Source: a virus. From it: 38,957 nucleotides of DNA. This document shows positions 2-25,700 of this stretch, piece by piece; position 1 is the first letter of the stretch, and each line of letters starts with the position of its first letter. A program made the translations under genes and the position numbers. The notes beneath the pieces were generated by a model. The model saw only the letters and a program-made list of their open reading frames with translations, had not been told where the DNA came from and did not search any database. The stretch is taken from positions 1 through 38,957 of the IMG/VR virus record IMGVR_UViG_3300046804_002185. One strand, given 5' to 3'.

Positions 2-811
2 ATCAATCTTGATGAACTTTTGCAATCTCTCAAGGAAGAGATTGAAGGTGACGAAAAGAAGGAAGACGAGAAAGACGAAACCATTGATGAACAGACCAAG
101 TTGGCATCATCGGGCATCGGCGGCAAGACCGGCGGTTCCGATAACAAGAAGCCATCCGCATCTGCTCACAATAGCTCGAAAATCGAGTCTGGTGGTATCA
201 AGAACAACGGAATTCCAGAAGGAAAGTCCGGTCCTGAAGATGCAACCAATGCGGCTCGTCCTAACAAGGCCAAGAACGCAACTTCGACCAACCTCTCGAC
301 CCCATCAAAGGGTGGAGAATCTGGTCCCGCACTCAAGGCAGCACGTCCAAACTCGAAGGGTGACTTCGAGAATACGCCAAAGCTGCATGAGGAAAACGAA
401 TCCTTGAAGAAACAACTTGAAGAACACATTGAGGTTATCAAGTATGTCAAGGGACAACTTAATGAGGTTAATTTGCTGAATGCTAAACTGCTTTACACGA
501 ACAAGCTGTTTAAGGAATTCGCAATGGGCAACGAGCAGAAGATGCGTGTTGTCGAAATGTTTGACCTCGCCAAAAACGTTCGTGAAGTTAAACTGACTTA
601 CGCTAACATTGCCGAGTCGTTGAATTTCGGTGCAAATGAGCCAAAGAAGAAGACCAATCCGGTCGCAACTTCCACTGCTCAATCCATCACCGAAGGTCTC
701 GCATCGAAGCCAGTCGGAAGCACGAAGCCAAGTGCTCAGATTATCTCTGAGAACAAGGTTTCAACACAGGTAACTCGATTCCAGAAACTCGCCGGAATCA
801 AAGGTGCCTAA
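2..811 (+). CDS. prohead scaffold/core protein, gp22-like (5' truncated)
   Basis: The frame is open from the left edge of the window, so the true start lies upstream. Residues are very charged and low-complexity at first (Glu/Lys/Asp, then Ser/Gly/Asn/Lys-rich). A coiled-coil-like helix follows, from about nt 385 to 490, running into the segment NLLNAKLLYTNKLFK and a conserved-looking tail containing VREVKLTYANIAESLNFG. This charged, helical layout directly upstream of the major capsid gene is what is expected of a T4-type prohead core protein, which is degraded by the prohead protease. Two I-x-E tripeptides near the C-terminus (ITE, ISE) fit the T4 gp21 protease consensus (L/I)-x-E. The family assignment rests on gene order and composition. 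A different capsid-assembly accessory protein is possible. Confidence 0.7.
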   Translation: MNLDELLQSLKEEIEGDEKKEDEKDETIDEQTKLASSGIGGKTGGSDNKKPSASAHNSSKIESGGIKNNGIPEGKSGPEDATNAARPNKAKNATSTNLSTPSKGGESGPALKAARPNSKGDFENTPKLHEENESLKKQLEEHIEVIKYVKGQLNEVNLLNAKLLYTNKLFKEFAMGNEQKMRVVEMFDLAKNVREVKLTYANIAESLNFGANEPKKKTNPVATSTAQSITEGLASKPVGSTKPSAQIISENKVSTQVTRFQKLAGIKGA

Positions 812-855: not shown

Positions 856-2550
856 ATGGAAAACGTTAAAGAACTGTTGACCAATGCATTGAACCCTCAA
901 GCACGCTTGATGGCCGAAACCCGTGGACTCGTGTCCAAGTGGGAAAAGACCGGCTTGCTCGAAGGTCTCAAGAATGACATTGAGAAGTCAAACATGTCCG
1001 TTTTGCTTGAAAACCAAGCAAAGCAACTCATTGAAGAATCATCTGTCACTGGCACTCAGTCCAACTCTGAGCAGTGGGCAGGTGTCGCACTTCCTCTCGT
1101 TCGTCGTGTATTCGCCGAAATCGCAGCTAAGGAATTCGTCTCCGTTCAACCAATGAACCTGCCTTCGGGTCTGGTGTTCTACTTGGACTTCAAGTATGGC
1201 ACGACCACTGGTGCGTTCACGGCTGATTCGAGCACCAACTATTCATCGCTCTTCGGTGGAACTGGTGCAAAGTCTGGTTCAACTGACCAACCAACGGGCG
1301 GTCTCTATGGCCCGGGCCGTTATGCCTACACTGTCAACGACCAAATTGCATGGAGCCAGTCCACTGGTTCTGCTGCAACTGTCGCAGACATCAACTTCGA
1401 TACTGGTAACAGTAACGATTCAGTTAACCAAACGTTGTCAGCATCGCTGGCCGCTGGTCAACTCTATACCTTGACCACCAATAACTTGACTTCGGTTGTG
1501 TTGTCAGCCTCGGGTTCATACCCAGACCTCAACGCAGTCCGTTCGTTCTCGCCATCTGGCTCGGGTATCGTTACCTACTTCCCCGGCTTCACCCGCTTTA
1601 GCGGTGCAGAAGTTGTGTTCGTTGTCTCTGGTTCGGCAATTTTGACTGGTTCGGCATCGCCCGCAATCAAGGTCAACTTGAGCTTGCAACCAAAGGATAC
1701 TTCCCGTGGTGACTTTGAAGACCGTCTCGGTGCTTCGACCACTGCTACGGATACTGGTCTTAACAAAGACATTGGTATTCCAGAAGTTAACCTCGAACTC
1801 CGCAGCGAGCCTATCGTTGCTAAGACCCGTAAGTTGAAGGCTGTCTGGACTCCAGAATTGGCTCAAGACTTGAACGCCTACCACTCGGTTGACGCAGAAG
1901 CAGAATTGACTGCACTGTTGTCAGAGTATGTTTCGATGGAAATCGATCTCGAAATCCTCGACATGCTTATCAACAACGCCCCAGCAATCAACAAAGAACG
2001 CTGGTCGGCTAAGTTGAACCGTGAAATCATCAAGACTGGTGCTTCCAGCTACCAGATTGTTGACCAAACGACCGCTGGTTCCGGTGGTTACTACACCAAG
2101 GCAACTTGGTATCAAACCCTCGGTAACAAGATTCAAAAGGTATCTAACAAGATTCACCAATTGACTCTCCGTGGTGGTGCAAACTTCATGGTCGTCGGTC
2201 CAGATGTGGCAACCATCCTCGAATCCATCCCCGGATTTGTGGTGAACACAGACGGTGACTCGGCCAAGTTCGCAATGGGCGTTTCTCGTGTTGGTAGCTT
2301 CGCAAGTCGCTTCCAAGTTTACAAGAACCCATACATGCAAGAGAACTTGATTCTCATGGGCTTCCGTGGAAATAACTTCCTCGAAACCGGCGCAGTGTAT
2401 TCCCCATACATTCCGCTCATCCAGACCCCTCTGGTGTATGACCCTGTGAACTTCACGCCTCGCCGTGGTGTCATGACTCGTTACGCCAAGAAGATTGTGC
2501 GTCCTGAGTTCTACGGTCTCATCTACGTGGCAGACACGAACCAAGTCTAA
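856..2550 (+). CDS. major capsid protein, gp23-like
   Basis: 564 aa. Forms the capsid shell hexamers. It carries gp23-family signatures: an N-terminal helical region (about 1-60), then VQPMNLPSGLVFYLDFKYG (about 97-116), and a central block with IPEVNLELRSEPIVAKTRKL and WTPELAQDLNAYHSVDAEAE. The end is typical of the family, with a TPRRGVMTRYAKK-like segment. An L-I-E tripeptide at residues 58-60 lies close to where T4 gp23 is cut (after E65), so I expect maturation cleavage there. Between about 120 and 290 there is a Ser/Thr/Gly-rich stretch, probably the surface insertion domain. The 45 nt before the ATG have no Shine-Dalgarno-like sequence and are A-rich, which is unusual for one of the most abundant phage proteins. 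A strong terminator follows the gene. Confidence 0.95.
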   Translation: MENVKELLTNALNPQARLMAETRGLVSKWEKTGLLEGLKNDIEKSNMSVLLENQAKQLIEESSVTGTQSNSEQWAGVALPLVRRVFAEIAAKEFVSVQPMNLPSGLVFYLDFKYGTTTGAFTADSSTNYSSLFGGTGAKSGSTDQPTGGLYGPGRYAYTVNDQIAWSQSTGSAATVADINFDTGNSNDSVNQTLSASLAAGQLYTLTTNNLTSVVLSASGSYPDLNAVRSFSPSGSGIVTYFPGFTRFSGAEVVFVVSGSAILTGSASPAIKVNLSLQPKDTSRGDFEDRLGASTTATDTGLNKDIGIPEVNLELRSEPIVAKTRKLKAVWTPELAQDLNAYHSVDAEAELTALLSEYVSMEIDLEILDMLINNAPAINKERWSAKLNREIIKTGASSYQIVDQTTAGSGGYYTKATWYQTLGNKIQKVSNKIHQLTLRGGANFMVVGPDVATILESIPGFVVNTDGDSAKFAMGVSRVGSFASRFQVYKNPYMQENLILMGFRGNNFLETGAVYSPYIPLIQTPLVYDPVNFTPRRGVMTRYAKKIVRPEFYGLIYVADTNQV

Positions 2551-4808: not shown

Positions 4809-5561
4809 ATGATTTCCTTTGCAAACATAATGCGGAAGATGTTGCTTGAGCGTATGTCATTCAGTGACCTTTACGCCAGTAGCACCCCTGACCGTGTTGA
4901 CCGTTCCAAGAATGTAAATGCCCGCTCCCTCCGTGTCACCAGCATGGGTGGACAGGAAGCATGGACATTCACATACAAATCCAACCCATCTACGACGGGA
5001 CATCGTTGGCATGGCTACGTTCGTTTCTTAAACGAAGATGTCATGCAGGCAACCAGTGCCGCCGAGTTGGATTGTATGGTGGACTGTGACTGCCCCGACT
5101 ATCGCTATCGGTTTGCTTACAACAATGCCAAAGCCGATGCTGGGGCAATTGGACCGGGGTCATGGAATCAGAACAATGGTCGTCCTCCCCGCCCTCGTGA
5201 ACAAGGTGGAGTTGGTGACTATGGCACGGGCATGTGCAAACATTTGATTGCTCTCGGCGAATTCTTGAAAACGAACATCGAACCCGATGCTCCTGAACCA
5301 GAAGAACCAAAAGCAACTCAGCCCCAACAGCAACCTAAGCCAGTTGCTCCCAAACCAAAAGTCAAACCACAACCCAAGCAAAAGCCGCAGCCAAAACCTG
5401 CGTCTCAACGTCCACAAACTGTCAATGCACCAGACCCCGACGATGACAGTTATTCAGACTCTCGTGGGGACATGTTGCAAGAGACGACTGGACACTTGGC
5501 GGAACGACTGAATAACTTGGTGAAATCCAAACCAGAATTTGACGTGTGGTATGAAGACTGA
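4809..5561 (+). CDS. SWIM-type zinc-binding protein of unknown function
   Basis: 250 aa. Residues about 93-97 (CDCPDY) and about 139-145 (GMCKHLIALG) give the CxC...CxH zinc ligand pattern of SWIM domains, which bind DNA or proteins. A Pro/Gln/Lys-rich linker of about 60 residues follows (160-215), then an acidic helical tail. The N-terminus is hydrophobic/basic and includes L-L-E at residues 12-14, an (L/I)-x-E tripeptide, so it could also be capsid-targeted; this is weaker than in the MIKL family. It overlaps the next gene by 11 bp, and the two probably form one unit. Confidence 0.6.
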   Translation: MISFANIMRKMLLERMSFSDLYASSTPDRVDRSKNVNARSLRVTSMGGQEAWTFTYKSNPSTTGHRWHGYVRFLNEDVMQATSAAELDCMVDCDCPDYRYRFAYNNAKADAGAIGPGSWNQNNGRPPRPREQGGVGDYGTGMCKHLIALGEFLKTNIEPDAPEPEEPKATQPQQQPKPVAPKPKVKPQPKQKPQPKPASQRPQTVNAPDPDDDSYSDSRGDMLQETTGHLAERLNNLVKSKPEFDVWYED

Positions 5562-6690
5562 TAAACTCAAAGAACTCATTCGACACATTGTCATGGAAAG
5601 CCTTGATGCTTTGCAAGAAGAGCATCAAAAAGGCGAGTGGTGGATTACCGACGATGGTGGAACAATTTTTGCCGATATTGATATTGGCGACTCAGGACAT
5701 GAAGGCGTTGTCATTCAGCATTTGACAAGCGAGATTCTTGGCCATTTCAACATTCATGACGTAGAAGGCGGAATGAACGACTATGAAGAGACCATTAAAG
5801 GTGTATTGGAGTCAGACGGTAGGTTTTCAGAAGAAGATAACGAAGAGTGGGAAAGCCGAGGCCCATCGGAAGTCATCCTCAAGAAAATCATTGAAGATAA
5901 ACTGTATCCTACCCCTGAGCAGGCCGAAGACGCTCTCTACATTGCTTACGGAAATACATCCCGAGACGCACGTAACTATGGAATGAGATACTTGAACTGG
6001 AAGATAATGAAGACTTACGGCAAGTATATTGAAATCCAGACGTGGCATCTGAAGCCAGACGATTTGTCGGCCATCGTTCGTGGATTGTGGGACATCATCG
6101 AAGATGACCCTGAGAACGAAGAAGACCCCGACAATCAAGTTGGAGAAGATGGTTTCCAAGGCCCACGCATCAATCTGACCGTAGCTGCTTCACAGAAACG
6201 CTTCCACGATATTCCTATGGCGGTGCTTGAGAAGAAGATGGCACAGAAGCTTCAAGCTTATCAGTCAGGCGTTCATGTTGGCTATACCGAAGCCATCAAC
6301 GAAGATTACCATTTCCATCACAAAGAGTATCGCCTATATGAAGGCAACCGTCACATTGTTGTCGCTTTTGATGACAACACCCGTCTCAAGTTTGAAGTTC
6401 ACTTCCGTAATGCACGGGGAGTTGACAAAGAGAAGTGGCGTCGTAAGGCTATGTCCACATGGAAATCATGTGCGAATGAGTTGCATCGGGACGTTCCATT
6501 GAGCGATGCTTTGAATCCTATTCAGAAGTCTTGGAAGGAATGCTTCAAGGAAGCCATGAAGAACCCTAAGATGAAGCCTTACATCCGAGTGCATCATCAC
6601 CACAAGATTTTCGATGACAAGGGCTATCCTGCCGCAGTTCAAGGCAAACCACAAGCCGTGGTTGACCCCGTGAATCTTACCCCTCGTTAA
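5551..6690 (+). CDS. hypothetical phage protein
   Basis: 379 aa from the ATG at 5551, which overlaps the preceding gene by 11 bp; an upstream TTG is less likely. I do not recognise a family. The start LKELIRHIVMESLDAL is a short amphipathic helix, followed by an acidic, Asp/Gly-rich segment with aspartate and isoleucine repeats (about 30-60). The C-terminal half is basic and His-rich (RVHHHHK near 352) and ends in VNLTPR. There is no signal peptide or membrane segment. Given its partner, it is probably a virion-associated or accessory protein. It converges with the leftward array that ends at 6709. Confidence 0.55.
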   Translation: MKTDKLKELIRHIVMESLDALQEEHQKGEWWITDDGGTIFADIDIGDSGHEGVVIQHLTSEILGHFNIHDVEGGMNDYEETIKGVLESDGRFSEEDNEEWESRGPSEVILKKIIEDKLYPTPEQAEDALYIAYGNTSRDARNYGMRYLNWKIMKTYGKYIEIQTWHLKPDDLSAIVRGLWDIIEDDPENEEDPDNQVGEDGFQGPRINLTVAASQKRFHDIPMAVLEKKMAQKLQAYQSGVHVGYTEAINEDYHFHHKEYRLYEGNRHIVVAFDDNTRLKFEVHFRNARGVDKEKWRRKAMSTWKSCANELHRDVPLSDALNPIQKSWKECFKEAMKNPKMKPYIRVHHHHKIFDDKGYPAAVQGKPQAVVDPVNLTPR

Positions 6691-9703: not shown

Positions 9704-10537
9704 TTACATCACGAATATCTTGCCAATGTTTTCTCCAAGGACACTTTCGACATAATATGGGAATGTATTGGCCAAATCGGTCAAATGATACTCTCCATTC
9801 TCCCTGTCTTTGAGACGGCGATATTCTTTACGGCCAAATGCACCATGACCTGTGAGCAATACATCGGGCAACGGATTGAATTTCACTGACCCATTCTTTA
9901 GGAACTGTGCAAACAATTCATAGAGAAACTCGAACTCTTCTCTGAGATTCTTATCCCGAGCACTCTTGAATGTGCCGATGGTCTCGCATAAATGTCGAGT
10001 AGCCAATTGATACTCACGGAATCGGCGGTAATTGCCATCATCATAGTAATTACGATGCACTTGAGCAATGCCGTATGTTTCCAAAATTCTTGCCAGTTTA
10101 CCTTCAACCCAAGGTGCAAGTTCTTTGTCCCAATTGTGCTGGCGGCGAAGGACGTGTCCAAGACGGTGAGCAATAATCCAAGCAGTAAGTGGAAGACGTT
10201 CCCCACCCTTGTTGTTAGTGAAGAACACGGTAATAGCATCCCGATTGATGCGACCATCCTTCAACTGCTCTGGCTTGATGTTGAGTTTGTCATAGATAAA
10301 CGACTCTTTGACTTCACCAAGTTCGGTGTATTTTCGGGCTTCTTTTGAATTGACAAAGTAGAAATCGAAGTCAACTTCAGTGTTTTGGAAGAAGTCTTTG
10401 ACTTTCTGAACTGAAGTAGGATTGGTCACGAGAGCACGGTCAACCTTGTTGGTAAAGGAAGACCCCTTGGAGAAATCTCCAATAGTCTGGAAGGTGTCAA
10501 TTGGTGCTTCCGACAAGATTTTTTTTAACTTAATCAT
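9704..10537 (-). CDS. capsid-targeted cargo protein with HRLGH (metalloprotease-like) motif
   Basis: 277 aa. The N-terminus MIKLKKILSE is the shared 10-residue leader ending in L-S-E, the (L/I)-x-E prohead-protease rule, so cleavage after E10 and packaging in the head are inferred. In the middle, AWIIAHRLGHVLRRQ has H124 and H128 spaced as in the HExxH zinc-protease motif, but with Arg instead of the catalytic Glu. Downstream acidic residues (EEFEFLYELFAQ, about 198-211) could supply a third ligand. It may be a divergent or inactive zincin, or an unrelated fold. It is the last of the four 4-bp-overlapped cargo genes. Confidence 0.7.
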   Translation of the reverse strand: MIKLKKILSEAPIDTFQTIGDFSKGSSFTNKVDRALVTNPTSVQKVKDFFQNTEVDFDFYFVNSKEARKYTELGEVKESFIYDKLNIKPEQLKDGRINRDAITVFFTNNKGGERLPLTAWIIAHRLGHVLRRQHNWDKELAPWVEGKLARILETYGIAQVHRNYYDDGNYRRFREYQLATRHLCETIGTFKSARDKNLREEFEFLYELFAQFLKNGSVKFNPLPDVLLTGHGAFGRKEYRRLKDRENGEYHLTDLANTFPYYVESVLGENIGKIFVM

Positions 10538-11214
10538 ACGTGTTCAAAGGATAAATACTTGGCTGGGACGGCTGAATGTATAATAATGGTGTCATCCGTC
10601 GTCCCTTCGCTTTGTGCATTTGAAGATGCACGGTCATCATCCCATGCTTTAATCTTGTTAGCAATGAAGTTGGTAACGTCAGCTTCGACGTGGTTTGGCT
10701 CTTTTGTTACCATTGGCATGAACCCGTCTTGTTTCATCAAATCAGTGTGAATGGTTACAACAGAAGGGCCGTAGCTTTGGGTAATCCAATCTGGCTCGGT
10801 GCTCGTGAAAACCGCTTGCCGAATATGTCTGTTTGCCAATCCACGGCTCTTATGTTGGGCCTGCAATCCATGCTGTTTGATGTTCTCTACGTTTTCGGTT
10901 GGCGTAGCGTGAAAAAGACGTTCGGGACGTTCCCAAAAACGACGGTTGAATTCTTCTTCAAACGCATCAGTCAACCGAGATACAAGGCGTTGACCTTCGG
11001 AACGATACAACCAGTCTTGTTTTTCCTTGACAACTGGATATTCAACATCTACAATGTTATCATCCCAAATAATGTATTCGTCTGTTCCAAGAACAACGAC
11101 TTCGGGCTGCTCGCCATGTGCCTGTAAGTATTGGAGAATAGCTTCCTTACCTACGAGTTCTTCGAGTTCGTAGTTATCCACTTCTTCGTTCAGAATTTTC
11201 TTAAGCTTAATCAT
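10534..11214 (-). CDS. capsid-targeted ADP-ribosyltransferase-like protein
   Basis: 226 aa. Leader MIKLKKILNE (L-N-E at 8-10). The C-terminal half has an ART-fold pattern: RLFHATPTENVENIKQHGL (H102, motif I, with the following 'N..I..HGL' as in DarT/PARP-like enzymes), then AVFTSTEPDWITQSYG (about 134-149, motif II) and a closing beta strand IIIHSAVPAKYLSF. The N-terminal part (11-90) is helical and acidic. T4 packages an ART (Alt) by the same kind of leader. The substrate here is unknown. A GTATTTATC sequence near the 3' end (10550-10556) resembles the recurrent promoter-like element. Confidence 0.72.
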   Translation of the reverse strand: MIKLKKILNEEVDNYELEELVGKEAILQYLQAHGEQPEVVVLGTDEYIIWDDNIVDVEYPVVKEKQDWLYRSEGQRLVSRLTDAFEEEFNRRFWERPERLFHATPTENVENIKQHGLQAQHKSRGLANRHIRQAVFTSTEPDWITQSYGPSVVTIHTDLMKQDGFMPMVTKEPNHVEADVTNFIANKIKAWDDDRASSNAQSEGTTDDTIIIHSAVPAKYLSFEHV

Positions 11215-12107
11215 AGAATCTCAATCCACTTGTCCAAAAGTTGTTGCTGGATGCCGCCCTTTTCAAACTTGACCGTGTAAAGATACTTGGCATCTTCCGT
11301 CCAAGATGTCAGAGGGTATGCTTTGCGAAACTCTTCGGCATCTTGTCGGGCGATGATTATTCCCTTCGTTCCCATTGGCACAGTTATTTCGCCACGGTTG
11401 TATCGGTCAATGTTGACCTTGGCACGAACTTTCGACCCGACTTCTCCACGTTGAGCCAGCTTGGGGTCCATGCGGTAAATGATAGCTGGGTCATACACAC
11501 AAACTTGGTCGCCATCCAACAGTTTGAACATGCCCTTGCCCTTATACCACACGGCATCATATTTCTCCTTGAGCACTTTGGTCATGTTGATGGTTGCTCG
11601 AAGGCGTTCTTCACGAATGGCGGGAAGGGTGTTCTTCGTTCCTCCCCAATCAGTTCTCATTCCGCCAAACGTAGTTTCAGGCGTGACTTTGTAATCGTAG
11701 CCGTTATCCATCCACCACTTCATCATCGTGCGAGGCGAACCCCAATTGATGACTTCCATTCGGGGCGCATCAATATAGAAGACGGGCATACCTTTGGCAG
11801 TCCCATGATTGTATTTCTTAGCGATTGCCTTGCTGGTCGTGAAATAGACACCAAACCCAAGGTGGTGAATCGGGGCAGGAATGCCGCCATAATAGTCAGA
11901 AACTTCATACCCATTGGCAATGTCGCCCGAGCGTTCGCTTCCCTGAAATATCTTGAAGCCGTCCACCGCAATCTTTTCCCAGCGGTCAGCGGTTGTTCCG
12001 TGATACACAGGGCCAAAGAGTTTCTTATCCATAACGGCCTGTGGGCTTAGAGCCACAATGCGCTCGGACAGCAAGACTTCGTTGAGAATGTTACCCAGCT
12101 TAATCAT
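11211..12107 (-). CDS. capsid-targeted ADP-ribosyltransferase (PARP/ART-like)
   Basis: 298 aa from the ATG at 12107; the longer start at 12119 is rejected because the ATG at 12107 gives the shared leader and the usual 4-bp overlap. A GGGAGG lies seven nucleotides upstream. Leader MIKLGNILNE (L-N-E 8-10), with a second L-S-E at 13-15. ART features: PVYHGTTADRWEKI..GF (H36), LGFGVYFTTSKAIAKKY (Y88) and GDQVCVYDPAII (about 199-210), the third motif where the usual Glu/Gln-type residue sits (Q201). It is likely to modify a host protein after injection, in analogy with T4 Alt. The C-terminus (220-298) is an additional beta-rich domain. Confidence 0.77.
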   Translation of the reverse strand: MIKLGNILNEVLLSERIVALSPQAVMDKKLFGPVYHGTTADRWEKIAVDGFKIFQGSERSGDIANGYEVSDYYGGIPAPIHHLGFGVYFTTSKAIAKKYNHGTAKGMPVFYIDAPRMEVINWGSPRTMMKWWMDNGYDYKVTPETTFGGMRTDWGGTKNTLPAIREERLRATINMTKVLKEKYDAVWYKGKGMFKLLDGDQVCVYDPAIIYRMDPKLAQRGEVGSKVRAKVNIDRYNRGEITVPMGTKGIIIARQDAEEFRKAYPLTSWTEDAKYLYTVKFEKGGIQQQLLDKWIEIL

Positions 12108-13087
12108 AAATCCTCCCATGTAAATACGCTGAGTGCGTTGGAGTCACCCGTCAGATGTTTGACGATGCTCGTTGGTTCTCCGTATTCCTCTTCGTTTGCC
12201 ATGTTGTAAATTCCCGGTGATTCTTCGTCGGCATTCTCAAATGGTTTGGTTACAACATGCATGAACGATTTATCGGTTGGAGGAATGGAGAAATCAATGA
12301 TGGTATAGACGTGTCCATTGAAGCTGTAATAGTCAAAATGCTCTCCGGCCTTACCATATTCAGACCCATATGAAAAACACCATAGAGAATTACATCCCAA
12401 TGCTTTCATTCCGGGCTGACCAGTCACGTCGATAATGACAATGTTTCCCTTGTCATAGACGATTTTCAAATCGTAATTATTTGCCTTGACAATTTGTCTC
12501 AAATCATACTTGGATAACTTGAACGTTCCGGCTATCAGGTTTTCCTTTTCTTCAACATAATCCAGAACATCCTCGAAGGTTGGGTGGTCGCTGCTGAAAA
12601 TCTTTTTCAGAAGGATAACCTTTTGTTCATCTGACCTATTTTCCAAGTAACTCAAATGTGCATTGATATACTCTACTCGGTCAAGTAAATGCGAAAACGA
12701 AGCACGAGGTTTGCGAATATCTCCACGGAGATTACGCAGCGAAAACTTAGGCCATTTACTGACGGCTTTGATGACCTTGGCTCGGTCACTCAGGGTTCGT
12801 TGATGAACCGATGGGATTGGCGAATCGAAGGAGAATCCTTCAATTGGGAAGAGATTCTTATTGTAATTCAGGAGTTGTGAATAAGCATCTTGCCATTGCT
12901 GCAAAGTCCATCGAACATGTGATTGCTTGTCTTCAAGCATCAATTCAACCAATGTCTTGTAGGTGTGGTCTTTCTTACCACCAGTCACCCTATCCAGCCA
13001 TTCAATATCAGCAGCTTCCAGCTTGTCGCCATAAAGTTTGGTAGCAAGTTGGACATTTTCTGATAGTAAATGACGGAGTTTAATCAT
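12104..13087 (-). CDS. capsid-targeted cargo protein, unknown function
   Basis: 327 aa. Leader MIKLRHLLSE (L-S-E 8-10). The middle is helical and charged. Around residues 225-240 there is GMKALGCNSLWCFSYGSEYG, a G-x-x-x-x-WC pattern reminiscent of phage proteins with a 'G..TKWC' signature, followed by a segment YYSFNGHVYTIIDFS; no catalytic family can be named. There are no membrane segments. It is first of the four overlapping cargo genes, translated from a start that overlaps the stop of the CCA/HD gene. Confidence 0.62.
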   Translation of the reverse strand: MIKLRHLLSENVQLATKLYGDKLEAADIEWLDRVTGGKKDHTYKTLVELMLEDKQSHVRWTLQQWQDAYSQLLNYNKNLFPIEGFSFDSPIPSVHQRTLSDRAKVIKAVSKWPKFSLRNLRGDIRKPRASFSHLLDRVEYINAHLSYLENRSDEQKVILLKKIFSSDHPTFEDVLDYVEEKENLIAGTFKLSKYDLRQIVKANNYDLKIVYDKGNIVIIDVTGQPGMKALGCNSLWCFSYGSEYGKAGEHFDYYSFNGHVYTIIDFSIPPTDKSFMHVVTKPFENADEESPGIYNMANEEEYGEPTSIVKHLTGDSNALSVFTWEDL

Positions 13088-15636
13088 TGGTTACGCATAG
13101 CCAATGCAATTTCTGTTGCTTCGGCCTTCGAGATATTTGGGTTCTCATACCACGCATCCGTAACGGCAGACAGAATCTTGCCGATGAGCGGGCCTTTTGG
13201 AATGCCCATCATTTGCAAGTCGTTTCCGTTGATAGGAAGCGTTGGCTTTGATACTTGAATGTCGAGGTTCTTGAGACGACGACGCACATGTTCAATCTGG
13301 TTTGGCATGGCGGATGCATCCGCATGAGCGATGTTGTCGGCGTGAATCACGTCGAGCAAATTCTCCAAGTTATTCCCAAGTTCAATCTTGAACTTGCGAA
13401 GCGACTTGTCGGACAACTTGACCGCATCATCCCCACCATGCTTCAAACGCATGTGGTTAGCCACACCCGCCTTGACAGCGTTGATGATGTCCGTAGGATA
13501 CTTCAAATCACGAAGCACACGGTCAACAATGTCAGCACCAGCCTGTTCATGTCCATAGAAATGCACACCCGTTGGTGTTTCGGAACGAGTTGCAACCTTG
13601 CCAATGTCATGGAACAACGCCATCAGGCGTTGCACCAACTCAGGCTTCGTGTTTGTGAGCACTTCAAGCGTGTGGTCGAATACATCGTGTGTATGGTGAA
13701 CATTTTGAGCCATACCGATGGCTTGTTGCAATTCGGCAGCAATGTGTGGCAACAGCCCAACGTCTTTCAGCAAACGAATGCCTCGGACGGGGTTCTTGGA
13801 CAAAAGAATCTTGTTCAACTCGTCACGGACACGTTCTTTTGACGTGTTACCGAGACGGTGAAGGTTGTTCTTGATGCCTTCAATGACTTCGGGAGCAATC
13901 TGGAAATTGAATTGCGTTGCGAAGCGAACTGCACGGAACATGCGGAGGGCGTCGTCCGTGTAAATCACGTTGGGGTCAATGGGCGTGCGAACCAGCCCAG
14001 CCTTCAAATCGGCCATTCCCTTTCCCGTAGGGTCGAGAATCTTACCAGATGACACATCTTTATACAAAGCATTGAATGTCAAGTCACGACGACTTGCATC
14101 CACTTCAATGTAAGGCGTGTATTGAACGACTGGCTTGCGGCTGTTTGGGTCGTGGTATTGCTCTTTACGGAACATGACTGCATCCACATTTTGAGCGGAG
14201 AAATCAATACCGTTCCAAACCACACCTTCCAAACGAAGATTGGCTGTGCCGAACGTCGGGTAAATGACGGGGTTGGTCTTTTCCTTAAAGATGCCAAGCT
14301 TCTTGCCGAGCCATTCGGTGAATTCGACGCCGCCTTGGAACTTTCCAACAACAATGTCAGCATCCTTGGGTGGTTTGCCCAAGAGTTCGTCACGGACAAA
14401 GCCGCCTACGAGGAAGACTTTACCTTCCCATTCAGTGCCTTTGATTTGTTCCCGAAGAAATGCTTCGAGGTCTTTTGGTGTTGCGGCTTTTGATTCCATA
14501 ATCTGTAACTTATTTTCGTCCACTCCATACCCGCCCTTTGTCGGATACATGTTAGACTTTGGCTCTGGCTTTTCTTTTGTCCAATCCAAATTCTTGTGAT
14601 GTTTGACTTCATATCCCATTCTTTCGAGATAGTTAGTCACATCTACTCTTGACTCGTCATCGGGTGGAAAATTCCACCAGAACACAGCTTTGACATCGGC
14701 GTTGTAAACCCAGCGATTCCAACCCATGTCTGGCGAATGACCACCGACATTTTTCTTTGCTACAATCCTACCAGTGCTCCAAATGCCACCATAAACGATG
14801 TCAGATTTTTCTGGTTTTTCTTGCTTTGGATTGAAAGAGAAAATCTCAGTCAATGGCTTGCGAACAAAATCACCCCGAGAGTTTACATGTCTCAAGACAG
14901 GGTATCCTTTCTTTTTCAAGAAATCTTCGACGGCAACATAGTTGTCCGTGTCAGTTGATGGCACCCACCAACTTACCGATTGCGAATATGGCCAGTATGA
15001 GAATCGGTTGTGACTGTTACCAAATCCGAACTCATCATGCATCCGCTCTCCGTCTTGAGGAAGTGGAAGATGAACTTTCCCATACGCATCCACCATTCCT
15101 ACCCATCTTTCTGTCGGGCTAAACCCTTCATTTAATCCAACTCGGCGCAATTGCGATTGCCAAGACAAATCCGTGCCCTTGGCAGGCTCATCCAATTTAG
15201 CGAGCCATATTCTACTCCATTCCTTCGATTTGTCAACGTCAAACCCTGTATAGTCATCCTTGACCCACAACCACTTATGATGCCAGATGCTATCTGAGTG
15301 TCCTTCTCGGGGCGGGGCTGTCCCATCTAATGATACGACCACGTAATCTCCGACATGTGGTTCGGATGCGGTATCGAAATCGGGAGCTTCATCAAAGCGA
15401 ACGATTTTCCGCTTTGCATCAACCATGATGGTGTTGTAGTTAAACTCGGGCTTGGCACGAGTCATTATGGCTTCGGCCTTTTGCAAAATCGCTGCGGGAA
15501 TGACTTCATCGGCATACAATTTATGCACGTAAACACTGCTGCCGACTTGTTTGCCGACATTTCCCCGATAACGACGAATAGCCGAACCTTGTTTGGTTCG
15601 GAGCGTCGTCTCATAGAATTGCGTGTATTGCGTCAT
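13084..15636 (-). CDS. CCA-adding/poly(A) polymerase-HD domain protein with phage N-terminal repeats
   Basis: 850 aa from the ATG at 15636 (4-bp overlap with the upstream stop); a longer frame to 15714 is less likely. Residues 385-620 are a class-II tRNA nucleotidyltransferase/poly(A) polymerase: VGGFVRDELLG with DAD (425-427), VDASRRDLTFNALY (512-525) and RMFRAVRFATQFNF (566-578). Residues 670-790 are an HD phosphohydrolase (ALFHDIGK; HD 676-677). The N-terminal 380 residues are unlike bacterial CCA enzymes. Residues 1-155 form a first domain, then two related modules (about 180-250 and 283-347) share a 'VSWW...VEDFLKKKGYPVLRH' / 'VFWW...VTNYLERMGYEVKHH' pattern. L-N-E at 168-170 and L-T-E at 262-264 fit prohead-protease sites. 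It could repair tRNA 3' ends damaged by host defences. Confidence 0.85.
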   Translation of the reverse strand: MTQYTQFYETTLRTKQGSAIRRYRGNVGKQVGSSVYVHKLYADEVIPAAILQKAEAIMTRAKPEFNYNTIMVDAKRKIVRFDEAPDFDTASEPHVGDYVVVSLDGTAPPREGHSDSIWHHKWLWVKDDYTGFDVDKSKEWSRIWLAKLDEPAKGTDLSWQSQLRRVGLNEGFSPTERWVGMVDAYGKVHLPLPQDGERMHDEFGFGNSHNRFSYWPYSQSVSWWVPSTDTDNYVAVEDFLKKKGYPVLRHVNSRGDFVRKPLTEIFSFNPKQEKPEKSDIVYGGIWSTGRIVAKKNVGGHSPDMGWNRWVYNADVKAVFWWNFPPDDESRVDVTNYLERMGYEVKHHKNLDWTKEKPEPKSNMYPTKGGYGVDENKLQIMESKAATPKDLEAFLREQIKGTEWEGKVFLVGGFVRDELLGKPPKDADIVVGKFQGGVEFTEWLGKKLGIFKEKTNPVIYPTFGTANLRLEGVVWNGIDFSAQNVDAVMFRKEQYHDPNSRKPVVQYTPYIEVDASRRDLTFNALYKDVSSGKILDPTGKGMADLKAGLVRTPIDPNVIYTDDALRMFRAVRFATQFNFQIAPEVIEGIKNNLHRLGNTSKERVRDELNKILLSKNPVRGIRLLKDVGLLPHIAAELQQAIGMAQNVHHTHDVFDHTLEVLTNTKPELVQRLMALFHDIGKVATRSETPTGVHFYGHEQAGADIVDRVLRDLKYPTDIINAVKAGVANHMRLKHGGDDAVKLSDKSLRKFKIELGNNLENLLDVIHADNIAHADASAMPNQIEHVRRRLKNLDIQVSKPTLPINGNDLQMMGIPKGPLIGKILSAVTDAWYENPNISKAEATEIALAMRNQ

Positions 15637-16982
15637 ACGTCTTGTGGATGTCTCACATTGATGATTGGAACATTGAACTCCTTGGAGAACCGTTCCAACA
15701 CATGCTTCACCCACGCCATTCCTGACATGGTGTAACTACCGGGGTTCAACCGACCCTTCTTTTCTTTCATGAACTCAAAAAACTTCCGTAACAATTCCTT
15801 GGAATATCCCTTATCACGAAACTCTGGCTTGGTTTGAATCATCAACAAATGGAAAACGTTAGATGTCTTGTCATGACCAAATGCGAGATAGCCATATGGC
15901 GTAACCCATTTGTAACCATGCGTGCTAATATCAATCAGCCCTTGAGGTTGAACCTCGTAGGACTCTTTTAGAGATTTCAAATACCTATTGGCAAAGACTT
16001 TATTGCGTCCAAGCTCAACCCGATTACCATTAACTTTGACCGTGCGTTTATATTCTTTTCCGGCTTCTTCCCAATTTTTGTTCAAGACTGCTCGCACAAA
16101 TTTCGGAAATCCAGTTAGAGTCCCCAAATTAAACGCATAGTCTGTGAGTATTTCTTCTTGGGTATCGTCTAACACAATTTGTACACCAAACATCTTCTTT
16201 ATGTCGTCGTGGGCCTTTTTCTTTGCCAATTGCAAATCCAACACCAACAACTTTTCAATTGTTCGGTCGTCCACACCTTTTATGAATTTTTTCAACTCGG
16301 ACTTGCTCTTAATCTTGTGTCCGTATCCTATAGTTGGCATACCGCCTTCGGGTGATTTGTGCGGATACCATTTTCCTTTCTTAAACCCAGACTTTCCCGA
16401 GTTTTCCACGGACTTGATGTAGTTGACAAAATCCTGAGAAAAAGAATTCGTCGAGTGATGTATGGCAGGTGGAGTATCCATTTCTGAAAGGGTGTTTTTT
16501 GCTTTTTTGGACTTTATCAAGTCTATCACCCTTTTTATCTTATGTCCATCATTTTTAATGAGTTCTTCCATTCCGAAATGCAATGGCTCTGGCCATTGAC
16601 CATATTCAACCCATACCGAACCTTCGTTTTCCCAATTGAGTTGTGGGGCGAATTCAAACGGAACGATAACCAAATAGTTATGATAGGAAAACTCTCCGTC
16701 TCGGTAAACGTAAAGTGGGTGGATTTTATAGCGACCAGTGAATCCTGTTTCTTCTTCAACTTCACGTTCGACGGCATCCTTGGGAGTTTCCCCAGCATCT
16801 ACCTTGCCGCCCCATGTTCCCCATGTTTCTGGTTCGTAGTCAACTTGGTTGCTTCGATGCGCCAGAAGAATGCGTCCAGTATCACGAGCAATAAAAATAC
16901 AACCAGCCGCTTCACTTCCCCAATACTCTCGGGTTCCTTGGTCTGCATCTAAGAAATCGTCTTGGTTTGGTTCAAATGGCAT
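15633..16982 (-). CDS. Nudix-lysozyme-GNAT three-domain fusion
   Basis: 449 aa. Residues 24-150 are a Nudix hydrolase with a perfect Nudix box, G59-x5-E65-x7-R73-E74-V75-E76-E77-E78-T79-G80-F81. Residues 180-335 are a T4-type lysozyme/muraminidase: SVENSG (E193, the general acid by alignment) and PEGGMPTIGYGHK, with T217 equivalent to T26, but S210 where T4 has D20. Residues 345-449 resemble a GNAT acetyltransferase, with EFRDKGYSKELL (R389-x-x-G392). The linkers carry L-S-E (165-167) and L-K-E (338-340), both (L/I)-x-E, so a polyprotein cut by prohead protease is possible. It leads the leftward array, preceded by a promoter-like element 37 nt upstream. Confidence 0.85.
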   Translation of the reverse strand: MPFEPNQDDFLDADQGTREYWGSEAAGCIFIARDTGRILLAHRSNQVDYEPETWGTWGGKVDAGETPKDAVEREVEEETGFTGRYKIHPLYVYRDGEFSYHNYLVIVPFEFAPQLNWENEGSVWVEYGQWPEPLHFGMEELIKNDGHKIKRVIDLIKSKKAKNTLSEMDTPPAIHHSTNSFSQDFVNYIKSVENSGKSGFKKGKWYPHKSPEGGMPTIGYGHKIKSKSELKKFIKGVDDRTIEKLLVLDLQLAKKKAHDDIKKMFGVQIVLDDTQEEILTDYAFNLGTLTGFPKFVRAVLNKNWEEAGKEYKRTVKVNGNRVELGRNKVFANRYLKSLKESYEVQPQGLIDISTHGYKWVTPYGYLAFGHDKTSNVFHLLMIQTKPEFRDKGYSKELLRKFFEFMKEKKGRLNPGSYTMSGMAWVKHVLERFSKEFNVPIINVRHPQDV

Positions 16983-18283: not shown

Positions 18284-18859
18284 ATGATTAACCTAAAAAA
18301 ACTGCTCACGGAAAACACCGTTGCCGCCAAACCACAACTGACCGAATCTGACCACGTTCACAACGGTCTGCATAAGGTTTTCGGTGCAGGCGACCCTGAA
18401 ATTTCAGTCCGTCGTTGCGAAAACGTTGGTCTTGGATACATCAAGAACATCAGCGAAGCAATTAAGATTGCCAACGTTGAAGCTCAAAAGGTCGCCAAGA
18501 TTTACGGCTATCGTTTGGATGAAGCCAAGGCAAAGTTTATCAAGGAAGACAACGACTTTACCAAGCTTGATGCTCAATCTCCTGAAAGTGCTCAGGCAAA
18601 GGTGACGCCAGACGAGCAGCCACATGATGAAACCAACATGGACGAGCCAGAAGAAAAGGCAGAAGTCCGCATTGGTAACGAAATTTTGAACTTGACTGCC
18701 AAACTGAGAACCGCTGTGGAAGCAGACCACGAGGCACAGTCCGCAGTTACGCAGATTCAAGCATTGGCTAAGGAATTGCTTTCGATTCACGGCCAATCCG
18801 ATAAGAAGCCATATGCAGGCCCACCCATCTTTACTGGTGGTGGACATGGAGGACTCTAA
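18284..18859 (+). CDS. capsid-targeted internal protein (MINLKKLLTE leader)
   Basis: 191 aa. Leader MINLKKLLTE ends in L-T-E at residues 8-10; a second L-T-E sits at 19-21. The body is helical and charged (HKVFGAG...ISEAIKIANVEAQKVAKIYGYR, then acidic 105-130), and ends GGGHGGL. There is no recognised enzyme domain. It lies between the gp13- and gp14-like neck genes on the opposite strand from the other four leader-bearing proteins, showing the leader is not confined to one operon. It could be an internal protein or a neck-associated assembly factor. Confidence 0.65.
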   Translation: MINLKKLLTENTVAAKPQLTESDHVHNGLHKVFGAGDPEISVRRCENVGLGYIKNISEAIKIANVEAQKVAKIYGYRLDEAKAKFIKEDNDFTKLDAQSPESAQAKVTPDEQPHDETNMDEPEEKAEVRIGNEILNLTAKLRTAVEADHEAQSAVTQIQALAKELLSIHGQSDKKPYAGPPIFTGGGHGGL

Positions 18860-22752: not shown

Positions 22753-25700
22753 ATGGCATTTCCCGATACACCACACAAGCTGGAAGCGGTTTTTATCCAG
22801 CGAGATACAACGAATAGCAGATATGACCAGATTAACATATCGGCATCGAATGCTATCGTGTACTTGGATGAAGACGGAAAAATTCAGGTTGATAAAGTAA
22901 ATGTTTGGGCGGCGAAATATGGTATTTCGTCTGCTTCGGGTAGTGCAGCTACAGCGTCGTGGGCATCCCAATCACTTTTTGCATTCACAGCATCATTTGC
23001 GACGAGTTCCATTTCGGCTTCATATGCTTTAACAGCGTCCTATGCGATAAGTGCGTCACACGCACCCGTAGCAAATACGGCATCCTACTTTTCGGGGTCA
23101 ACTATAACCGCCTCGGCAATTCTCGTTAAAGATATTTTGCCGTTAGGTAGTTCAATTGGTTCACCGTCTCAAAAATTTTCAACGGTCTATGCCGATAACA
23201 TATATGGCACTGCATCCATTGCTGTCAGTGCTTCATATGCTCCCGGTGCGCCGTCAATCAGTGCTTCATATGCTTTAACTGCTTCATATGCATTAAATGG
23301 TGGAAATGGAGGAAGTGGAACTGGTTCGGCATCAACGGCAAGCATTGGACTGGTATCTCTTGATTCAAATATGGCGACGAAAGTTCCATTTTTTAGTCAA
23401 GACAATTCTCTATCGGCATCAAAAGTTTCGGTGACAAATGGATTGACCGTAAACGTTTATACTGATTCCCATACCGCACCGCCAATGGAACGGGTGTTGT
23501 ATATCGGTCGTGACGGAAACGTGAATACTTGGGCAGCGATGGGGTTCTATAACGATGCTGGTGGAACCAATGCAAAGTATTGGTTGAACTATGCCGACCA
23601 AGTAAACAATCTTGAATGGTCTGCTGTTAGCGATGATTTTTCAATTGTGAGTCCGTGGTTGACGGTAACTCGTTCTGGCTCGGCTATTTCTCAAATCCTT
23701 TTCCAAACAGATACTTCAATCAAAGGCAATTTACTTCCATCAACAAACCTGACCCGTTCTTTAGGAACTGCATCATTGCAATGGAAAAATGCATGGATTC
23801 AAAACGTATTTGGAACTGCGTCTTTTGCAAACACGGCATCATTCATTACTTCTTCTGCAATCTCAGGCAAGATAACCAACGCAGTTGTGTCGGCATCATT
23901 CGCTTCGATGTCAATCAGCGCATCCTATGCGCCATCCGCACCATCAGTTAGTGCGTCCTACGCTGCGACTTCTTCCTATGCTTACAACGCTGGAACGGCA
24001 AGTTTGTTGCTTGGTTCGATTGAAAGTGCTTCGTATGCGTTGTCGGCATCCTTTGCTCAGACTGCATCGTTCATTACAACCGCAGCCACAGCATCGTTCG
24101 TATCAGCTTCGGCAATTTCGGGAAAAATAACCAATGCGGTAGTGACTGCTTCGTGGGCTTCGGCATCACAGACTGCGGTCACTGCGACAAGTGCTAACAC
24201 CGCAACCACGGCTACGACTGCTTCGTGGGCGGCAACGGTAACGGCTTCAGGAATCATCGGGAATCCACAAATAGCTTTGTCAGCATCGTGGACTTCCGCC
24301 TCACTTTCGTCAAGTTATTCCCAAACAGCATCGTGGGCATTGTCAGCATCTTACGCACCATCCGCACCATCCATCAGTGCATCCTATGCTGAAACCGCCT
24401 CATATGCATATCAGGCAGGAACGGCAAGTTTGCTGCTTGGGTCGGTGGAAAGTGCGTCATACGCTTTGACCGCTTCGTTTGCATTTTCGTCATCGAATGC
24501 AATATCATCCAGCAATTCATTTTCGTCATCTTATGCGGGAACGGCAAGTTTGCTGCTTGGGTCGGTGGAAAATGCAACTATCGCAGTTTCAGCATCGTTT
24601 GCTTCGGCTTCTATTTCTGCAAGCTATGCCTTGAGTTCTTCGGCTACGATTAGTGGCTCATATTCATTCAATGCAGTAAATGCCGAATCGTCATCATATC
24701 CTTGGGCGGTATTTTCAGGAAGTCCCGTCCACATTTCAAAACCAGTTGGAATTGGTGTCCAACAAATATCGGCTTCTCGACTTTCAATTCTGGAAACGAC
24801 AAGTAATCATGTATCTGCCTCAGTTGTTACAATCCACACAACTAGGACAGATACACAAGTAGGAACGTTAGATATTAGAAACTTGGCGTCATCGGCAAAC
24901 GCAAACGCCCGTTCCGGCATCTTGCTTACGTTGGGGCCGACAGGGAGTCTTGAGGGTGGTAGTATTTTTGTAACTAGAACTGCCACTCCCGCACAAGGTC
25001 TGGTTAATGGTTTGAACATTACTCCGAACGCAGCCTCGGCGGACATTGGTATCCGAACTGGTGCGGCATTGAGTGGTTCCGTATCTGGTCCTCAACTGCA
25101 AATCAAAGCAAACGGAGCAATTGGTATGGGCGTTGCTACCCCCACCAATGCTCGTTTACATATCGGTGGAACAGAATTGGCATTCTACAACGCCACCATT
25201 CGTTTGACCAATGGTTCTGCTGGTGGTGCTGACGTTTACATGGCTGCAACCGACGATGCGTGGGGAGGTTCGGTTACTGGAAAATTCTTGATTGGAACGG
25301 GCGACCCTTCGTCGGGAACTCCTATTCTTCAACTTTTCCCAACCTCGGCAAGCGTTGGTATTGGTATTGCAAACAATCTTCAGCCTCAAGCTAAACTCCA
25401 TGTCCAAGGAAATATCAGTGCAAGCTTGGTCACAGCATCTTTGGCGGGAACGGCAAGTTGGGCAAACAATGCTCTCACTTCAAATACGGCCTCTTTTGTT
25501 TTAACAGCATCGTTTGCATTCCAAGCAACCAGTGCATCATGGGCACCCTCGGCTGCATCAGATATAGCAGTCTCAGCGTCTTGGGCGTCTCAATCATTAA
25601 GTTCATCATATGCCACTACTGCATCGTATAGTATCAGTTCGTCGGCAAGTAACACTGCCTCGTTCGCTTTCTCAGCATCATATGCCCCCGGTGCTCCTGC

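Follow-up and report, generated by a model that had tools for sequence, protein, structure and literature searches.

The stretch of DNA analysed here, which we call the window, is a 38,957-base fragment held as IMG/VR record IMGVR_UViG_3300046804_002185. Translation confirms that four adjacent genes on its minus strand, together with a fifth gene at 18284, encode proteins that open with variants of the same ten residues, MIKL/MINL..[IL]L.E, ending in LxE. We refer to these ten residues as the leader and to the proteins behind them as cargos, and they are placed as follows.

10508..10537, minus strand: leader MIKLKKILSE, the first 10 residues of gene 9704-10537
9704..10537, minus strand: cargo 1, 277 residues; no family, AHRLGH motif
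11185..11214, minus strand: leader MIKLKKILNE, the first 10 residues of gene 10534-11214
10534..11214, minus strand: cargo 2, 226 residues; predicted ADP-ribosyltransferase (ART) fold at about residues 85-226, nearest Tpt1/KptA
12078..12107, minus strand: leader MIKLGNILNE, the first 10 residues of gene 11211-12107
11211..12107, minus strand: cargo 3, 298 residues; ART-like YHGT..GF..GVYFT pattern, with weak profile support
13058..13087, minus strand: leader MIKLRHLLSE, the first 10 residues of gene 12104-13087
12104..13087, minus strand: cargo 4, 327 residues; no relatives detected
18284..18313, plus strand: leader MINLKKLLTE, the first 10 residues of gene 18284-18859
18284..18859, plus strand: cargo 5, 191 residues; directly 3' of the neck (head-tail adaptor) gene

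Past the leader the five proteins are unrelated, as the initial annotation of this DNA had it, because BLASTP among the five cargos (residues 11 onward) gives nothing better than an E value of 0.7. That annotation also had every start overlapping the upstream stop; this is so for the four clustered genes, where the overlap is the 4-base ATGA, and not for the gene at 18284, which begins past the upstream stop after a short gap. The ATGA overlap suggests translational coupling only, and the idea of interchangeable cassettes that had been drawn from it is supported instead by the number of cargo families and the shuffled domain architectures described below. In gene 11211-12107 the leader Met lies at 12107, and the longest open reading frame opens four codons upstream, at 12119.

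Six large T4-like relatives of the window were found via the capsid protein and fetched whole, and their genes were called with a simple purpose-written script rather than a standard gene finder. An iterated leader profile scores above 7 in 55 of the 2781 genes of the six relatives and the window, in none of the 2781 after shuffling of residues 2-10, and in 3 of 9156 decamers that begin at an internal Met. In a non-circular test, genes were chosen on M-I-[KNRSH]-L alone, that is, on residues 2-4 (n=49). Glu stands at residue 10 in 32 of these 49 genes and in 165 of 2694 others (p 4.8e-26), I, L or V occupies residue 7 in 44 of the 49 and residue 8 likewise in 44 (about 25% elsewhere), and an [ILV]xE ends at residues 9-16 in 40 of the 49 versus 343 of the 2694. 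Synonymous codons differ at the conserved leader residues, with six Leu codons in use at position 4 for example; it is therefore the protein sequence that is conserved. In a motif search of relatives, as had been proposed at the outset, 48 of 2743 genes in the six relatives bear this leader (class I), versus one among the 1385 genes of background viral loci, which are the control loci of the permuted-codon scan described next. The shared leader is confirmed as a real, non-chance feature.

Five of the six relatives hold 8-11 leader genes per genome. IMG/VR was scanned with a degenerate DNA pattern for the leader and with a control pattern of the same codons in another order, at least 120 stretches being obtained with each. 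Among the listed matches, 146 of 156 for the leader and 8 of 121 for the permuted-codon control are gene starts, meaning that the match opens a reading frame that is 40 residues or longer and extends little further 5', and two or more leader matches occur in 25 of the 120 listed stretches versus 1 of 120 control stretches. Single-linkage clustering on residues 11 onward divides at least 249 leader proteins into at least 129 families; this set was partly picked by a pattern that requires Glu10, so the Glu10 count within it carries no evidence. The leader family contains the four clustered genes and the 18284 gene, and it is wider than the coordinates first assigned to it. In LR756508, a 484-kb uncultured phage, variant leaders keep residues 4, 7, 8 and 10 and leave residue 2 free; a loose pattern matches 30 times there versus 21 for the reversed control, seven of the matches standing in a row at 330-338 kb, and the homologue of cargo 2 opens MYRLTKILRE versus MIKLKKILNE in the window. 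Microcystis phage Mel-JY01 has four leader starts within 2.5 kb (60276-62762), one of them ahead of a decayed frame; at L195:7734-8481 (Mel-JY01 62733) a lone leader is followed by a stop-ridden frame, as if the cargo had decayed. A tblastn search with a 25-residue leader query gave no match, as expected for such a short query. The T4-like lineage that carries the leader may have among its relatives phages predicted to infect Bacteroidetes (passages of PMC9723584), and a match to a Flavobacterium phage helps to suggest that the relatives used here may fall in that group.

Most leader proteins match no named family. Those that do are often enzyme-like: among 94 of 98 leader proteins (three near-duplicate proteins and a gene that ran over the edge of a retrieved segment were left out), Pfam at an E value of 0.01 finds eight ART-PolyVal, seven GNAT and four phage lysozyme domains, and single PARP, Tpt1, NUDIX, GIY-YIG and other matches. 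Among 126 of the 151 new proteins from other contigs, up to three per family, an E value of 0.001 gives three zeta toxins, two exonucleases, two cell-wall hydrolases and single matches to tRNA nucleotidyltransferase, NT5C, LysM and MPTase-PolyVal. An ART regular expression, composed after the leader proteins had been inspected, matches 7 of 50 leader genes versus 15 of 2693 other genes of the six genomes; three of those 15 have variant or class II starts (below), and most of the others look spurious.

The initial annotation assigned ART domains to two members of the window array, and the assignment holds by fold match for cargo 2 and only weakly for cargo 3. Residues 85-226 of cargo 2, in a predicted model with a pLDDT confidence score of 69.6, adopt an ART fold (Z 9.4 and a root-mean-square deviation of 2.7 over 92 residues to Tpt1 1wfx); the best 16 matches of the structure comparison all belong to the Tpt1/KptA family, the best Foldseek E value is 6.4e-3, and NCBIfam offers only RNA 2'-phosphotransferase, below its cut-off. 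It is well supported by this model that cargo 2 is an ART-fold protein nearest Tpt1/KptA. For cargo 3 there is a weak Pfam match to ART-PolyVal (E 0.038), the AlphaFold model has a pLDDT of 29.9, and no convincing sequence match was found in PDB. Scans of viral contigs for close relatives found none for cargos 1, 3 and 4 and one for cargo 2, and tblastn against a phage collection likewise found nothing for cargos 1, 3 and 4 and one distant match for cargo 2. Cargo 1 has a homologue with the same leader at L020:7003-7839, and it matches the C-terminal part of G006:73350-74558, which has the leader and an inserted domain. Beside the array, 13084-15714 encodes a tRNA nucleotidyltransferase fused to an N-terminal domain, and that domain sits behind a leader in relative G003; a leader-bearing tRNA nucleotidyltransferase is present in another contig. 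Domains are shuffled behind the leader in the cargo 1/G006 and 13084-15714/G003 cases. The neighbouring gene 15633-16982 encodes a fusion of Nudix, phage lysozyme and GNAT, in which an LxE (NTLSE) separates the Nudix from the lysozyme domain, and a homologous lysozyme domain stands behind a leader at G010:9482-10033.

The window also holds head genes and further candidate leader genes, and it codes besides for a neck adaptor, tail genes and a contractile sheath.

20..811, plus strand: prohead scaffold homologue, C-terminal part; [IL]xE-rich, 9 sites versus 3.3 in shuffled sequence
856..2550, plus strand: T4-type major capsid protein; conserved candidate cleavage site KQLIEE after residue 61 (codon 1036-1038)
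4809..5561, plus strand: likely sixth member, with a 14-residue variant leader MISFANIMRKMLLE followed by RMSF
5551..6690, plus strand: gene with the second leader class (MKTDKLKELIRHIVME)

An S77 prohead protease is encoded by all six large relatives, along with a T4-type portal, TerL and major capsid protein. The 120 loci yielded 27 further leader contigs for the protease and Gp23 searches, mostly larger ones chosen from the first 80; S77 is present in 13 of these, Gp23 in 9 and either in 14. In the window and the six relatives the major capsid protein has KQLI[ED]E at residue 60-61, ahead of the conserved mature sequence, and scaffold [IL]xE sites exceed those of shuffled sequences in six of seven proteins at p<0.01, the seventh giving p 0.055. 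Orthologous leader genes place the probable cleavage boundary, in that the terminal (I/L/V)xE stays constant while leader length changes: with a slash for the putative cut, L014:15353-16156 reads MIKLRDLLCE/RMSF, L016 reads MISFSKILRRLLTE/RMSF, and the window gene 4809-5561 has RMSF directly after its 14-residue leader. The gene directly 5' of the protease, where T4 has genes 67/68, bears the leader in G006 and G007; the candidate boundaries there are MIKLKELLNVTE/QAPQPP in G007, MIRLKNLIKIQE/ASP in G006 and MSKKIKLRNLLNLTE/QAPQPP in G010. Two other features of these head regions may be recorded here. The portal proteins of G003, G005, G006 and G007 are 1011-1420 residues long versus 533-693 in the other relatives, and so have large extra parts fused. 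A conserved protein of about 200 residues lies just 3' of the capsid gene in L027, L073, L075, L079 and others, and its orthologues have a leader in some phages and none in others.

A second start, M-K-K-S-[EQ]-L-K-x-L-I-K-E-[IV]-[IV]-x-E (class II), is found on 39 genes in the nine genomes or records scanned, a count that includes the window 5551 gene and one lipoprotein-like false match. It is frequent in G016, on 10 genes against a single class I leader, and in several relatives a second-leader gene lies between portal and protease; its positional link is weak, with 12 of 34 genes inside the 15-kb distance. This second leader, MKKSxLKxLIKExxxE, occurs on otherwise varied proteins, and both classes are found together even in background contig L330.

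We consider it probable, by analogy with T4 and from the residues conserved, that the ten residues are a head-loading and cleavage leader working like the T4 capsid-targeting sequence (CTS). The amphipathic N-terminal segment, hydrophobic at residues 4, 7 and 8, would dock each protein on the scaffold core during prohead assembly; after the shell closes, the S77 prohead protease would cut after Glu10 at (I/L/V)xE, freeing the mature protein inside the head, from which it would likely be delivered to the host along with the DNA. Because only the leader would be needed, unrelated enzymes could be placed behind it, and ADP-ribosyltransferases, acetyltransferases, lysozyme-fold proteins, kinases and many proteins of no assigned function would have been; in the window this would take the form of a four-gene, probably translationally coupled array. 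Docking, packaging, cleavage and injection are steps that we infer rather than direct observations. The parallel with the T4 CTS, already drawn in the initial annotation, came out stronger under test, since conserved residues 4, 7, 8 and 10 coincide, the relatives encode a matching protease, orthologues retain a terminal (I/L/V)xE whatever the leader length, leader genes cluster with head genes and ART domains recur among the cargos.

Some of the same data would suit a different destination: the leader might direct proteins to the neck, tail tube, baseplate or the virion generally rather than specifically to the head interior. Cargo 5 adjoins a neck gene, and lysozyme, LysM and cell-wall hydrolase cargos would suit a tail. 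Of the 48 leader genes, 35 have a head or neck gene within 15 kb, versus 408 of 2743 genes, and this positional test cannot separate head from tail because head and tail genes neighbour each other. The terminal (I/L/V)xE rule is in keeping with a prohead protease, however, a leader gene stands directly 5' of that protease, and the conserved residues match the T4 CTS register, all of which makes another virion compartment unlikely. We regard as somewhat less likely again a retained, uncleaved N-terminal assembly or anchor motif, such as a helix by which the protein docks into a complex within the infected cell. It would accommodate the 9 of 49 MI[KNRSH]L genes without [ILV]xE at residues 9-16, which speak against a cleaved leader, but Glu10 is conserved along with the hydrophobic positions, and orthologue leaders vary in length while the final Glu stays right before the conserved mature sequence. 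That the proteins are diverged paralogues, or that the shared start acts in expression at the DNA or RNA level instead of as a protein signal, seems very improbable. The four genes are adjacent with ATGA overlaps and ATGATTAA recurs; yet there is no similarity past residue 10, the at least 129 families include different folds, and synonymous codons vary at conserved residues. Both explanations are largely refuted by these observations.

Several further observations weigh against a CTS-like head-loading leader. An S77 protease was not seen among the window proteins scanned, the window being a fragment, and S77 or Gp23 is present in only 14 of the 27 leader contigs tested, though these too are mostly fragments. 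Thirteen of the 48 leader genes have no head gene within 15 kb, and the positional p value (9e-20) is too small because leader genes occur in tandem clusters and the counts are not independent. G016 holds the same head genes yet has a single class I leader, Flavobacterium phage immuto carries one leader (gene 24569-24994) and RM378 none. Finally, the tRNA nucleotidyltransferase, NT5C, LysM and cell-wall hydrolase cargos are not obvious injected effectors, and the leader sequence differs from that of T4.

We lean slightly towards a broader proposal: a widespread N-terminal address label, existing in two or more interchangeable versions (MIKLKxLLxE and MKKSxLKxLIKExxxE), would identify a very large group of proteins that environmental T4-like phages, many being jumbo phages, package in the head and inject. 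If so, much of what these phages inject as effectors could be read directly from gene starts. The internal proteins of T-even phages came to light through their shared leader, and they are now known to inhibit particular restriction enzymes (passages of PMC12373910); a leader recognisable by sequence in uncultured phages would likewise give a candidate list of host-takeover and anti-defence proteins, here at least 129 candidate families, mostly unnamed. The leader may serve as a guide to the phage proteins that are carried in the particle and delivered into bacteria, and such leaders could be short, naturally occurring tags with which to load enzymes into the heads of other phages. Unrelated proteins with only a capsid leader in common are already known in T-even phages (passages of PMC12373910 and PMC9026906), and cleavage of head proteins behind Glu is known from giant phages (part of PMC5694885). 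An earlier description of the present leader was not found among the open-licence PMC papers listed, searches on the two isolates included; what is new here is a different consensus, a larger enzyme-rich repertoire and another T4-like lineage.

The closest known system is the CTS of T4 internal proteins IPI, IPII and IPIII. As set out in parts of PMC9026906, ten residues are enough to load a protein into the T4 head; targeting depends on residues 4 and 7 and processing on 8 and 10, and gp21 cleaves behind L/I-x-E. IPII and IPIII begin MKTYQEFIAE and gp61.1 begins MKTFKEFIKE, with a longer IPI leader that has ITE at residues 17-19, so that T4's own leaders differ among themselves. The two systems share an N-terminal position, a length of about 10 residues (10-19 for leaders of the T4 type), hydrophobic residues 4, 7 and 8, Glu10 and the L/I-x-E rule; an L/I-x-E ends all five window leaders, and conservation falls at residues 4, 7, 8 and 10, the T4 positions given in PMC9026906. 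In both, the leader is common to otherwise unrelated proteins that form a polymorphic cargo set (parts of PMC9026906 and PMC12373910). They differ in that the consensus here is MIKLKxLLxE, the T4-like lineage is another and the cargos are often enzyme-like. As had been noted at the start, the leader is unlike T4's in sequence; because few residues of MIKLKxLLxE and MKTYQEFIAE are identical, we do not claim homology, and Met1, hydrophobic residues 4, 7 and 8 and Glu10 match in kind. Cargo 5 orthologues have N-termini different from the leader. T4 Alt is likewise an ART cargo with a short N-terminal leader, annotated as capsid-borne and entering with the DNA, whereas the one ART domain modelled here is nearest Tpt1/KptA. 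The head propeptides of SPN3US and phiKZ resemble the leader in that a prohead protease cuts after Glu and two paralogues have an identical 15-residue start, and differ in that many exceed 100 residues and the motif is A-x-E or S/A-x-E (passages of PMC5694885). With polyvalent proteins the leader proteins share ART-PolyVal and MPTase-PolyVal domains and predicted injection (passages of PMC5512222); unlike them, they are mostly shorter and carry a common, cleavable-looking leader.

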